Assembly (NCBI GenBank): GCA_018449595.1
Contig: JAAVUU010000002.1
Location: 620,001 to 684,000 of the forward strand
Direction of reading: 5' to 3'
Length of the DNA: 64,000 nt
Source of the DNA: Rhizobiales bacterium dw_265
GTDB taxonomy: Bacteria; Pseudomonadota; Alphaproteobacteria; Micropepsales; Micropepsaceae
Shown: positions 19,870 through 24,184 of the stretch, piece after piece
Numbering within the stretch: the first letter of the stretch is position 1
How the letters are laid out: each line of letters begins with the position of its first letter
Notes under the pieces: model-generated
Database searches by the model: none
Told to the model about the DNA's origin: nothing
The model's input: only the letters and a program-made list of their open reading frames with translations
Made by a program: the position numbers and the translations under genes

Positions 19870-19998
19870 GCCGAATCAACCACTTGGCTGTGACGCCCCC
19901 CGTTTTGAGAACGCCCAGACAGGGTAAGCGCTTCCCACAAAAGTGAAACTTTCCTGTGGCCTGCTAGGTTGGAACCTGGAACTTCCGAGTCCTGCGCC

Positions 19999-20904
19999 GT
20001 GAAACGCCGCCACTTCATCGCCTGGCGCCTGCTGAAGGAAGGCATCGCCGCCTTTGTCGACGACAGCGCGCTCACACGCGGCGCGGCCATCGCCTTTTAT
20101 GCCGTCACCGCCATCGCCCCGGTGCTGTTCATCGCCACCACCATCGCCGCCCTGGGCCTGGGCCAGGACGCCGCCAGCGGCGCGGTACATTACCAGTTGA
20201 CCCGCATCATGAGCGCGGAATCCGCCGACCTGGTGCAGCTGGCCATCCTGCATGTCCGCAACGGCGCGCACACGCTGGTGGGCAGCGTGATCGGGATCGT
20301 GGCGCTGGTGGTGACCGCCAGCGGCTTCTTCACCGAAATAGAAGACGCGCTGAACGTGATCTGGAAAGCGCCGCGCCATGAATCCTATTTCTACCAGTTG
20401 CTGCGCGGCCGGGTGATGAGCCTGATCCTGGTGATCGGGCTGGGCTTCCTGCTGCTGTTCTCCATGGTGATCGCCACCGGCGTGCGGGTGCTGGGACACC
20501 TGCTGGACCGCTTCACCGACCTCTCCGAAGTGGTGGTGGGCACCATCAATGTCTGGTTGAGCTTCATCGTGGTCTCGCTGCTGTTCGCGGCGATCTACAA
20601 GCTTCTGCCCAACAAGGCGCTGCAATGGCGCGACGTGCTGGTGGCCAGCTGCGGCACCGCCATCCTGTTCGAGGCCGGCCAGACCCTGATCGGCTATTAC
20701 CTGGCCAATTTCATCACCGCCAATATCTATGGCGCGGCGGGCGGCATCATCGTGCTGCTGATCTGGGTCTATTATTCGGCGCAGATATTCCTGCTGGGGG
20801 CGGAATTCACCAAGGTCTGGGCCGGCCATTACGGCAGCCTGGCCGCGAGAATGGCTAAAATGCCGGCAACAGATTCGCCCCCGCCGGCGCCGCCAGCGGC
20901 GTAA
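19999..20904 (+). CDS. yihY: YihY/BrkB family inner-membrane protein
   Basis: A 301-aa polytopic membrane protein (about six TM helices) of the YihY/BrkB (former RNase BN) family. Hallmarks: DDSALTRGAAIAFYAVTAIAP, ALNVIWKAP, and LIWVYYSAQIFLLGAEFTKVW. The start is uncertain: GTG at 19999 is chosen; a TTG at 19969 would add ten residues; no strong ribosome site supports either. The stop lies 50 bp inside the end of the convergent Sel1 gene. The function of the family is not established. Confidence 0.9.
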   Translation: MKRRHFIAWRLLKEGIAAFVDDSALTRGAAIAFYAVTAIAPVLFIATTIAALGLGQDAASGAVHYQLTRIMSAESADLVQLAILHVRNGAHTLVGSVIGIVALVVTASGFFTEIEDALNVIWKAPRHESYFYQLLRGRVMSLILVIGLGFLLLFSMVIATGVRVLGHLLDRFTDLSEVVVGTINVWLSFIVVSLLFAAIYKLLPNKALQWRDVLVASCGTAILFEAGQTLIGYYLANFITANIYGAAGGIIVLLIWVYYSAQIFLLGAEFTKVWAGHYGSLAARMAKMPATDSPPPAPPAA

Positions 20905-22309
20905 AGGCCTGGGCGGCATTGACGGCCATCCGCACATCGGCGGCCTTCAACTGGCCGCGCAGGAATTCCGCCCGCGCCCTCGACGGCGCATCGCCTTCCT
21001 GCGCCGCGATGCCATACCATTTCAGCGCCTGGGCCAGATCCTGCGGCACGCCCTCGCCGCGCTCATACAGCACCGCCAGGTCAAAGGCGGAATCCACATA
21101 GCCGCGTTCGGCGGCGCGGGTGAACCAGAGCGCGGCCCTGGCCTGGTCCCGCACCGTGCCCTGCCCCTGGGCATAGGCAATGGCGAGATTGTGCATCGCC
21201 TTGAGGTTGCCGCGCGAGGCCGCGACCGTGAACCAGGCAAAGGCCCGCACCGGATCGGGCGCCACGCCCGCGCCCTGGCTGTACTGGGCGCCCAGCAGGT
21301 ATTGCGCCATGGGTTCGCCGGCGTCTGCGGCCGCCGCGCTCCAGCGCGCCGCCGCCACCGGGTCGCCGGCCACGCCCTCGCCGCGCAGATAGGCCAGCGC
21401 CAGCCTGGCCTGGGCGCGGGAATCGCCGGCATCGGCCAGCGCGATGGTGCGGCCAAGGCTGGTGGCGGCGACATGGCGGGACGCCGTGCCGTTGCCCGTC
21501 AGTTCGGGCTGGGTCGCACGCGCCGGATCGCCCAGTGTGAGCCCGATGCCGATGAACAGGGCCACCAGCGACAGCCCGCCCAGCGCCAGCCAGCGCAGGC
21601 GACTGCCGGTCTTGCGCTTCGGCGGTTCTTCCGGCACCCGCGCCTTGTCGCGGGCGTTCTGCAGCACCCCGGCCATTTCCTCCTTGGAAATGACGGCGAC
21701 AGGCAAGGGCGGGATCACCAGCGACGGATCGGGTTTCTTTTCGCCTTCCGGCGGCGTGGCCGGTGGTTCGGATAACGGCTCCGGCAATGGCTCCGGCGGG
21801 ATCGCCAGCAGCGGATCGGCGAAAACCCGCTGTGCCGGCGCGGACTGCGACACCAGGGGCTGGCCCAGGGCCGCCAGCTTTTCCTCCATCTGGGCCAGGC
21901 GCATATCCAACTGGCGCTGCTTGGTCTCGGCCTTGGCTTCCAGCGCCGTCAGGGCGCGCTCGAACACCCGAAGCCGCCGCTCCAGCCAGGCATCGGCCAG
22001 CTTCTCCGTCTGGGGAGGCTCGGCGGCGGGAATTTCCGGCGCAGCGACAGGCGCGGTTTCGATGGCGGTGGCAAGATCGGGCCTGGGCGTATCCTGCTGC
22101 ATCAGCGCCGCCATCAGCGCGGTCTTGCCGGGAAAGTGCATGCGAAAAGCTGCACGCTCTATCCCCGCCTCGGCGCACAGGGCCCCGACCGAGAATTTGC
22201 CGTCGCCGCGCAGCACCAGCGCCCGCGCCGCCTCCAGCATCCGCGCCCTGTTGTCATCGCCAGGCGGTTCGGCGACCGGCCCGGCGGGCTGGGTTTCAAT
22301 CTGCCCCAT
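20855..22309 (-). CDS. TetR-like HTH / coiled coil / TM / Sel1-repeat fusion
   Basis: A 484-aa protein with an unusual layout. Residues about 20-70 resemble a TetR N-terminal HTH (RARMLEAARALVLRGDGKFS, GALCAEAGIERAAFRMHFPG, KTALMAALM). A coiled coil (about 98-138), a Pro-rich linker, and one TM helix (about 239-260, after KRKTGSRLR) follow. The C-terminal part has four Sel1 repeats (about 287-430; LAYLRGEGVAGDP, GAQYSQGAGVAPDP, AIAYAQGQGTVRD, AVLYERGEGVPQD). Positive-inside topology puts the HTH in the cytoplasm and Sel1 repeats in the periplasm. ATG at 22307-22309 is chosen; a GTG at 22348 is possible. It may be a membrane-tethered regulator or a PodJ-like organiser with a degenerate HTH. 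Confidence 0.82.
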   Translation of the reverse strand: MGQIETQPAGPVAEPPGDDNRARMLEAARALVLRGDGKFSVGALCAEAGIERAAFRMHFPGKTALMAALMQQDTPRPDLATAIETAPVAAPEIPAAEPPQTEKLADAWLERRLRVFERALTALEAKAETKQRQLDMRLAQMEEKLAALGQPLVSQSAPAQRVFADPLLAIPPEPLPEPLSEPPATPPEGEKKPDPSLVIPPLPVAVISKEEMAGVLQNARDKARVPEEPPKRKTGSRLRWLALGGLSLVALFIGIGLTLGDPARATQPELTGNGTASRHVAATSLGRTIALADAGDSRAQARLALAYLRGEGVAGDPVAAARWSAAAADAGEPMAQYLLGAQYSQGAGVAPDPVRAFAWFTVAASRGNLKAMHNLAIAYAQGQGTVRDQARAALWFTRAAERGYVDSAFDLAVLYERGEGVPQDLAQALKWYGIAAQEGDAPSRARAEFLRGQLKAADVRMAVNAAQAFTPLAAPAGANLLPAF

Positions 22310-22393
22310 GTCTGCACCGTTATTCACCGGACACAGGCTAACGGGCACGCCTTACCATCAGGATTTCAAAACCGGCGCAATTTGAGCGATTTC

Positions 22394-23233
22394 TCAGGCG
22401 TGCCCGACTTTGGGCGCGCGCGCCGCCTGGTGGCGATGGTTCACCATCCGCATCAGCAGGATGATGACAAGTATCGTTGTGCCATAAGCGATCAGCTGGG
22501 CGCCGTTCGGCGCCTCGCTATAGCCGACCAGGGTGTGCAGCAACCGGCCGGCGATGCTGTCTTCCTTGATAAGCCAGGACGTGTCCCAAACCGTGTCGGT
22601 GAAATAGAGCAGCCAGCCGCCATTCTGCAAAAAGATCACCGCCTGCGCCGCCATGCCCGCCGCCAGCAAGGTAATCAGCCCGCCGGTGACCTGGAACAGC
22701 CTGCCCGCCGGAATGGTGAGAAGGCCGAAATACATCAGCCCGGAAACCAAAGCGCCGCCAACAAGCCCCAGCGCGCCGCCAGCCACCATCGCGGAAGCAC
22801 TGGTGCCGCCCTGCGCCGCGATGCCATAGAGAAACAGCACCACTTCCGAACCTTCGCGCAGCACCGCCACGCCGACCACGATGGCCAGCGCCGTCAGGGT
22901 GCGCTCGCCGGTCTTGACCTGATGCCCCGCGGCCTTGAGTTCCAGCGCCATCTCGCGGCCATGGCTGGCCATCCAGACATTGTGCCAGGTCAGCATGCAG
23001 ACCGCGAGCAGCAGGATGGCGGCATTGAAGAACTCCTGCCCCGAGCCCTGGAACAGGTTGGCCAGTTCGCCGGCAAAAGCCGCGACCAGGCAGGCGCCCA
23101 GCACGCCCGCGCCGACGCCGATGGCGACCCAGCGGCCGCGGCTGGGCACGCCGGCGGTGGCCGCCAGCACGATGCCGACGATCAGCCCGGCCTCGATGAC
23201 TTCGCGAAAGACGATGATGAGGGCGGAGATCAT
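22394..23233 (-). CDS. ftrC: FTR1-family iron permease (FtrC)
   Basis: A 279-aa inner-membrane iron permease with about seven TM helices and both REXXE iron-ligand motifs: REVIEAG (10-16) and REGSEVV in the fourth helix region. It is the last gene of ftrA-ftrB-ftrC; its ATG overlaps the ftrB stop by four bases (ATGA). In Brucella and Bordetella the FtrABCD system takes up ferrous iron; there an FtrD ferredoxin-like protein follows, but none is encoded here. Regulation is probably by the Fur-like site at 24084. Confidence 0.92.
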   Translation of the reverse strand: MISALIIVFREVIEAGLIVGIVLAATAGVPSRGRWVAIGVGAGVLGACLVAAFAGELANLFQGSGQEFFNAAILLLAVCMLTWHNVWMASHGREMALELKAAGHQVKTGERTLTALAIVVGVAVLREGSEVVLFLYGIAAQGGTSASAMVAGGALGLVGGALVSGLMYFGLLTIPAGRLFQVTGGLITLLAAGMAAQAVIFLQNGGWLLYFTDTVWDTSWLIKEDSIAGRLLHTLVGYSEAPNGAQLIAYGTTILVIILLMRMVNHRHQAARAPKVGHA

Positions 23234-23544
23234 TCTGCGATCACCACGCCCTGGGCGGTAGCCGCATGGTATTCGCCCATGAAGGGGTATTTGCCGGGGG
23301 CAAGCGCGCGCAGGCGGATATTGCCCTTGGCATGGCCGGGCACCACCTTCTCGATCTTCAGCGCCGAGGAATCGAACTCGTCGGCGCTGTCGTCGTCATT
23401 GTAGAGCAGGATCATGCCGGGCTGGTTGGCCTTCACCTTGATGGTGGAGGGCGAGAATTTGTGGTCCTTGAGATGGACTTCCGTCACGGAGTCCGCCAGC
23501 GCCGGCGGCGCGATCATCAGGAGAGCCAACAGCAGTTTTTTCAT
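23230..23544 (-). CDS. ftrB: Periplasmic cupredoxin-like protein (FtrB)
   Basis: A 104-aa exported cupredoxin-fold protein (signal MKKLLLALLMIAPPALA) that accompanies P19 and FTR1 in ferrous uptake, probably as iron oxidase or electron partner. Conserved segments are HKFSPSTIKVKANQPG and the C-terminal FMGEYHAATAQGVV. No Cys occurs in the mature protein, so a classical type-1 copper site is absent. The ATG at 23542-23544 lies within the end of ftrA (ATGA overlap), supporting this start over one 17 codons earlier. Confidence 0.87.
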   Translation of the reverse strand: MKKLLLALLMIAPPALADSVTEVHLKDHKFSPSTIKVKANQPGMILLYNDDDSADEFDSSALKIEKVVPGHAKGNIRLRALAPGKYPFMGEYHAATAQGVVIAE

Positions 23545-24062
23545 GGGGTCTTGCTCGGATAGGTAAAGGTCCAGCTCGCGGTGACCGGCTTCCACCAGTC
23601 GGGCACGCCGCCGGCCTTGTCGGTGCGGCGCATCATCCCGTGGGCGCTGGGCGGCGAAACGATCAAGGTCAGGTGATAGGTGCCCGGCCCCGCCAACTCG
23701 GCGCCGGCGGCATAGTGCGGCCCGCTTTTGGCGGCGACGGGATACAGCAGGCCGGCTTTCCTGTAGGTCGGGGCGTCGTCCTTGGTCAGGGCATAGCTGA
23801 CCGAGAGATAGGGAATGAAGGCATGCTCGCCAAAGCCATGAACGTCATCGCTGGTGGCGTGGATGTCGGCGGCCAGGAACACCGAACTGGCGGTCAGCGG
23901 TACGGGGTTCCTGTCCCAGGTGGCGTCGGTCTGGAAACTGGGCGCGATCTCGATGCCGTCGCGCACCAGGGGTGCGCCGATCACAGCCGCCTTTGACTCA
24001 GCCATGGCCGCCCCGGCGAAGGCCAGGGTCAAAAGGGCAGCAAGGGGCAAGGCGGAACGCAT
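23541..24062 (-). CDS. ftrA: P19-type periplasmic iron-binding protein (FtrA)
   Basis: A 173-aa exported protein of the P19/Tp34 iron transporter family (signal MRSALPLAALLTLAFAGAAMA). Metal-site segments are visible: EIAPSF, FLAADIHATSDDVHGF, EHAFIPYLSVSY, SGPHYAAGAEL and PPSAHGMMRRTDKA, with the His and Met residues that bind Cu/Fe. It is the first gene of a tightly coupled operon delivering ferrous or ferric iron to FtrC. Confidence 0.92.
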   Translation of the reverse strand: MRSALPLAALLTLAFAGAAMAESKAAVIGAPLVRDGIEIAPSFQTDATWDRNPVPLTASSVFLAADIHATSDDVHGFGEHAFIPYLSVSYALTKDDAPTYRKAGLLYPVAAKSGPHYAAGAELAGPGTYHLTLIVSPPSAHGMMRRTDKAGGVPDWWKPVTASWTFTYPSKTP

Positions 24063-24083
24063 CGTTGTTCCCGCCTCTATAGA

Positions 24084-24098
24084 TGCAACTCATTCTCA
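24084..24098 (-). promoter_or_regulatory. Fur-like operator upstream of ftrABC
   Basis: On the minus strand TGAGAATGAGTTGCA is an imperfect 7-1-7 match to the Fur box TGATAATNATTATCA (10 of 14 arm positions), 22-36 bases before the ftrA ATG. It is consistent with iron-repressed expression. Irr or another iron regulator could use the site instead. Confidence 0.5.
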
Positions 24099-24184
24099 AG
24101 TACAGGCCCTTCTATGGGCTCTGGCCGTGAAATAGGCGTCATGCCTATGCTGCGCCCCGACAAACCAAAAAACGGGGAAGCGCA

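Follow-up and report, generated by a model that had tools for sequence, protein, structure and literature searches.

TetR-type regulators are normally soluble proteins. Can a TetR-type head nevertheless be part of a membrane protein and, if so, where does such a protein come from and what might it do? The question is raised by a reading frame of 484 aa on the minus strand (20855..22309) of a 64,000-nucleotide window from the genome of Rhizobiales bacterium dw_265 (contig JAAVUU010000002.1). A sequence-only reading of this DNA had described a TetR-like helix-turn-helix (HTH), a transmembrane (TM) helix and Sel1 repeats in a single polypeptide. As a whole this is confirmed by open reading frame, Pfam and AlphaFold2. 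The frame starts with an ATG at 22309; with the in-frame GTG at 22348 as an alternative start it would be 13 aa longer. The same arrangement is found repeatedly in one group of uncultured alphaproteobacteria and defines a real protein family. These cells may act on their DNA from the membrane.

Sequence sets

The first search covered 36 genomes of the genus besides that of the window and 24 others of the class, and 31 regions were taken. Set A1 consists of the window protein and 26 of these regions (n = 27); five regions were excluded, of which L050 is PodJ-like, L060 is truncated where its contig ends, and L061-L063 encode other Sel1 proteins. A first scan of named contigs gave no match. From named contigs of uncultured genomes the best 80 of 265 relatives were kept, and an HTH profile built from A1 detected the HTH in 35 of the 80. 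Set A2 is the window protein plus 32 of these 35 (n = 33); L075, L129 and L138 have uncertain starts and were left out. Set A3 is A2 minus L072, L074 and L090. A1 and A2 are not independent because A2 was picked by the A1 profile and many contigs are common to both. The Pfam TetR_N model is independent of either selection.

The TetR-type head

The head comprises residues 19-72 (22094..22255, minus strand), close to where the sequence-only reading had placed it (about residues 20-70). Pfam TetR_N matches residues 26-69 of the window protein with E = 4.6e-05 and 23.6 bits, i.e., 0.4 bits below the gathering score of 24. A PDB sequence search returned TetR-family chains against stretches within residues 11-110 (E 0.0013-0.0065). 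TetR_N was matched in 31 of the 33 proteins of A2 (E <= 0.05) and was reported in 22 of the 27 of A1. By eye the HTH is present in 24 of the 27, and it is missing in L037, L038 and L052. None of the NCBIfam models reached its cut-off in the seven family members scanned.

AlphaFold2, supplied with 33 sequences, modelled the full protein with a mean pLDDT of 79.9 and a pTM of 0.49, the domains being joined by low-confidence linkers. Helices are predicted at residues 17-34, 41-48, 52-58, 62-71, 101-149, 209-223 and 235-259, followed by the Sel1 helices from 284 on. The first four build a TetR-like head, with block-mean pLDDT values of 87-96 over residues 21-70. Folded by itself the head was predicted with lower confidence (mean pLDDT 70.7, pTM 0.52). 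The best 50 of 715 Foldseek matches of this lone head are TetR-type regulators, some by their label and others by what we take to be their family; many fit at 1.5-2.5 Å over about 57 columns. None of these 50 reached E <= 0.001, which we attribute to the shortness of the domain. The best 50 Foldseek matches of the full model, which include eEF2 kinase entries, are chiefly Sel1 proteins; a TetR structure is not found in these 50. A frame artefact or a chance weak match is ruled out by the HTH in relatives, the TetR_N matches across A2, the AlphaFold2 head and Foldseek.

The recognition helix has fixed and variable positions. F59, part of its frame, is kept in every one of the 30 rows of A3; position 62 is Lys or Arg in 28 of them. 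Position 56, which we take to be that of the phosphate-contacting Tyr of TetR, is Arg in the window protein; in A3 it is Arg in 12, Tyr in 11 and Phe in 5 of the 30 rows. The head carries a net positive charge (8 K+R versus 5 D+E). The HTH evolves under constraint. In comparisons with seven relatives its dN is 0.23-0.41, its dS 0.47-1.02 and its dN/dS 0.25-0.53; for the Sel1 domain dN is 0.20-0.34 and dN/dS 0.27-0.47, and in the linker of residues 150-205 dN reaches 0.68-1.40. The dN of the HTH exceeds that of Sel1 in six of the seven comparisons; thus, the constraint on the head is similar to that on the Sel1 domain, not stronger.

The long helix, the membrane helix and the Sel1 domain

The head is followed by a long helix, residues 101-149 (21863..22009, minus strand), a putative dimerisation stalk. 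Its DAWLERRLRVFERAL block is common to many members of A1. The sequence-only reading had assigned a coiled coil. What stands is one helix of 49 residues in the AlphaFold2 model; a crude test for heptad periodicity was not significant (moment 0.34 versus a shuffle mean of 0.41, p = 0.59). Coiled-coil families gave weak Pfam matches in single relatives.

A single TM helix is predicted at residues 235-259 (21533..21607, minus strand) by AlphaFold2, with block-mean pLDDT values of 60-84 over this stretch, and by hydropathy, with a Kyte-Doolittle maximum of 2.27 at 241-259. The N-terminal flank carries five Lys and Arg, the C-terminal flank two, a distribution that fits a cytoplasmic N-terminus. 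The part beyond the membrane, predicted to be periplasmic, consists of a Sel1 domain and a PodJ-like tail (residues 284-470; 20900..21460, minus strand). Pfam Sel1 matches with E = 7.7e-31 in four stretches, in line with the four repeats counted earlier. Block-mean pLDDT is 86-98 in this domain, and the PDB sequence search returned many Sel1 chains over the C-terminal half. The notion of a membrane-tethered TetR-type head has thus held: a head of TetR-like sequence and predicted fold shares one chain with a Sel1 domain and a predicted TM helix, a combination that is conserved in many relatives.

Distribution

The sequence-only reading had pointed to the alphaproteobacteria at large as the place to look for this architecture. 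In an order-wide search (96 genomes, one family) the HTH plus Sel1 layout was found in two of seven genera. In the genus, 44 of the 69 genomes gave matches running from HTH to Sel1, those in G457 and G008 ending at model positions 351 and 449, respectively; in the sister genus g277 two of seven genomes did. By eye the HTH is present in four more of the 69: G034, G026, G002 and G024 (contig ends before Sel1). The other five genera of the order (20 genomes) gave a match in 17 genomes, always within model positions 229-506. These absences are soft because many of the genomes are incomplete.

A shallow class-wide search with A2 (385 genomes, three candidates scored per genome) showed, among the matches listed, the HTH-to-Sel1 span only in this genus. 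With the N-terminal 156 aa as query 7 of the 385 genomes matched. Three belong to the same genus; in the other four the frames are 213-254 aa long, as is usual for TetR proteins. The query is insensitive because two of five same-genus genomes with the layout were missed (G061, G354). Of 624 matching plasmid records 12 were listed, and among these none had one place covering 80% of the query; the class and plasmid searches could miss an unrelated TetR-Sel1 fusion. Among the papers listed from the open-access literature none describes a membrane-bound TetR-type or a TetR-Sel1 protein.

Kinship with PodJ

The sequence-only reading had set PodJ apart as an organiser that has no HTH. By sequence and tree, the Sel1 half is nevertheless a PodJ paralogue. 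The same genome encodes a separate PodJ-like protein with 44% identity over query residues 276-480, and the nearest proteins without an HTH are PodJ-like. Among the best 80 relatives 45 are without HTH; 35 of these are PodJ-like, with frames of 741-1036 aa, and the remaining 10 are truncated or smaller. In the same contig set the HTH family mostly has 450-790 aa.

A tree of the C-terminal part was calculated for 124 of 135 distinct proteins over 209 columns, after three short-match rows and eight distant outside rows had been dropped; it is rooted at the midpoint and its bootstrap had not settled. In this tree a clade of 106 rows is set off (support 100/99) from L143 and 17 outside rows. Within the clade a PodJ-like branch of 46 rows (92/85) stands beside a branch of 60 rows, which is weak (84/47). 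All 50 of the 50 HTH-bearing rows fall into the 60-row branch.

The remainder of the 60-row branch bears on the possibility, considered by the sequence-only reading, that homologues might lack the HTH. Such homologues exist: eight short rows and two contig-end rows are without HTH, and after reassignment of L201 as a frameshift at least seven HTH-less members are left, a call that rests on uncultured genomes in which assembly errors are possible. They are nested inside the HTH-bearing branch, and two of them, L037 and L038, occupy the same FTR1-yihY locus as their HTH-bearing sister L210. Therefore we read them as cases of HTH loss. It follows that the HTH is dispensable in some species. A separate HTH gene was searched for at eight HTH-less loci, and at seven of the eight no nearby same-strand HTH reading frame was seen. 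L202 shows only two TetR-like frames on the opposite strand. For these seven loci splitting-off of the HTH as a separate gene is rejected. In the most economical history podJ was duplicated, and the HTH was acquired once and lost several times. More than one gain is possible because the branch is weak and PodJ rows of five genera are absent from the tree.

Some single loci deserve description. In L201 (3851-5541) HTH and Sel1 lie in two overlapping frames, i.e., an assembly frameshift or a broken gene; it was left out of the loss count because the HTH frame overlaps in another frame. L202 (3864-5090) is a TM-Sel1 protein of the 60-row branch with an N-terminal DUF6538 (Pfam), presumably a domain of phage integrases, instead of the HTH. 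Judged by its domains this is a second exchange of the cytoplasmic part. L215 (3619-6747) carries two HTH-bearing Sel1 genes near each other on one strand, and a third copy is located elsewhere in the same genome (G458). The N-terminus of a PodJ-like protein in L107 (2885-4600) reads PWNVAGIPPETREAVRAAARREGLSLGEWM, which to our eye resembles ribbon-helix-helix proteins; Pfam gave no ribbon-helix-helix match there at E <= 0.5.

The locus

The gene closes a same-strand run that encodes a P19-type Fe2+ transport protein (23541..24062, Pfam Iron_transport), a cupredoxin-like protein (23230..23595) and, directly upstream of the gene, an FTR1 iron permease (22394..23233), all on the minus strand and assigned by Pfam. 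At its 3' end it meets the convergent gene of a yihY/BrkB membrane protein (19969..20904, plus strand; reading frame and Pfam), and the tail-to-tail overlap of 50 bp reported earlier is exact. Of the 53 other branch members that have at least 1.5 kb of upstream sequence, 23 have a same-strand FTR1 gene upstream; in 30 of the 53 it was not seen within 3.5 kb, as far as contigs allow. A convergent yihY within about 100 bp is present in 14 of 60 branch members, the window included, some contigs ending earlier. In L054, L058 and L198 the gene adjoins yihY and FTR1 was not seen; L198 has only 1.5 kb upstream. No constant partner gene was seen at 14 loci, where genes were called by a codon score of our own; this score found none at all at L044 and overlooked known genes at L113.

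Upstream of the gene a non-coding motif, AATTG-N20-TGGTAA (22352..22382, minus strand), is conserved, which could be a promoter or operator. The genome of 4.2 Mb contains one exact match, with 0.25 expected at the window GC of 65%. Among the 60 branch members 9 carry the motif exactly and 3 carry it with a single mismatch, all of them in the sub-branch of the window protein; 8 of these 12 carriers formed the discovery set, and the independent cases are L075, L198, L058 and L208. A different block, CTGTACTTGAGAATGAGTTGCATCTATAGA (24076-24105, minus strand), precedes the P19-cupredoxin-FTR1 genes and is similar in nine of nine aligned sequences. We take it to resemble an iron box of the Fur type over a promoter.

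Possible functions

We favour, with about an even chance of being right, a transmembrane transcription regulator derived from a podJ duplicate. This reading starts from the HTH, the TM helix, the Sel1 domain, the PodJ kinship, the conservation and the constraint as they stand in sequence and prediction. The duplicate would have kept the TM helix and the periplasmic Sel1 domain of PodJ, and a TetR-type HTH would have taken the place of its long cytoplasmic coiled-coil part. With the N-terminus presumably in the cytoplasm, two heads may pair via the 101-149 helix because the protein lacks the domain by which TetR proteins usually dimerise and bind ligands. The Sel1 domain might bind a periplasmic protein or a cell-wall partner; such binding would cluster or place the protein and thereby alter its grip on DNA. 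The first candidate for a target of the head is the promoter region of its own gene.

Known systems provide parallels. Transmembrane transcription regulators (TTRs) such as ToxR and TcpP are widespread and combine a DNA-binding domain and a TM segment in one polypeptide, according to the sections of the TTR survey drawn on here (PMC10269533); the window protein has both, the TM helix by prediction. It differs from them by its TetR-type head and its PodJ-type Sel1 domain on the periplasmic side. The main text of the survey, in these sections, mentions neither TetR nor Sel1, while more than 100 kinds of DNA-binding domain are tabulated there (PMC10269533). According to excerpts of one report (PMC11856585), an engineered fusion of ChiS and TetR in Vibrio cholerae brought back part of the promoter induction by way of tetO, an effect that was lost with anhydrotetracycline. 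Thus, on these excerpts, a tethered TetR can bind DNA. HigX of Caulobacter crescentus is likewise an alphaproteobacterial membrane-bound transcription factor, yet in the portion of its description used here it has a LytTR head, four predicted TM helices and no apparent periplasmic domain (PMC13384398).

With the TetR family the window protein shares the N-terminal HTH in sequence and predicted fold; unlike that family it has no C-terminal ligand-binding or dimerisation domain that Pfam or AlphaFold2 would find, and it is predicted to be membrane anchored. With PodJ it shares a TM helix followed by periplasmic Sel1 repeats, for the window protein a predicted topology, but instead of the long cytoplasmic region with multiple coiled coils it has the 49-residue helix and the HTH. 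PG_binding_1, the peptidoglycan-binding domain at the C-terminus of PodJ, is absent from the window protein according to Pfam. Both PodJ-like proteins of the clade that were scanned lack it as well; L148, the only outside protein scanned, has it. The periplasmic Sel1 domain of PodJ may itself bind peptidoglycan, as indicated in part of one report (PMC9926476).

Other readings have to be weighed against a membrane-bound regulator. TetR-type heads are normally site-specific regulators, which counts against a chromosome tether, i.e., a protein held at a pole by its PodJ-type periplasmic domain with the HTH pinning DNA there. The paralogy of the Sel1 half with PodJ would suit such a tether, as would the failure to see a constant gene neighbour, and for Caulobacter PodJ the periplasmic domain is by itself able to gather at poles (Lawler et al., cited in the part of PMC8980812 used here). 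However, from the same part, PodJ in E. coli is still found at the poles when its periplasmic domains are missing, and its polar placement there needs coiled coils 1-3 (PMC8980812), which are absent from the window protein. On balance we regard a tether as rather unlikely. We also think it improbable that the protein is a small PodJ-like organiser in which the HTH fold has turned into a part for dimerisation or protein binding that makes no DNA contact. The HTH-less members, two of them at the same conserved locus, the divergence of the recognition helix at residue 56 and the different N-terminal module of L202 would agree with a scaffold of this kind, but the constraint on the HTH, the basic residue at position 62 and the net positive head speak against it.

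The neighbouring genes suggest yet another role, that of a dedicated regulator of the FTR1-cupredoxin-P19 iron-uptake genes which senses periplasmic iron transport. The same-strand FTR1 upstream in the window and in the 23 other members would speak for it; the larger number of members in which FTR1 was not seen, the three loci that keep yihY beside the gene but show no FTR1, and an operon promoter with a conserved block other than AATTG-N20-TGGTAA, iron-box-like in appearance, make it very improbable.

Implications

For the membrane-bound regulator a more specific version can be envisaged, albeit a doubtful one on present sequence evidence: the PodJ-type periplasmic domain would place the TetR-type head at one pole, where it would hold and control a promoter or chromosome site. 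If true, a single polypeptide would directly link cell polarity with gene expression or with the position of the chromosome. With a conserved membrane-tethered version of TetR that is based on a polarity protein, the range of transmembrane regulators would become wider, and the route of origin of this version would be duplication plus exchange of the cytoplasmic part. The family would thus be a natural model for a possible coupling of polarity with DNA binding.
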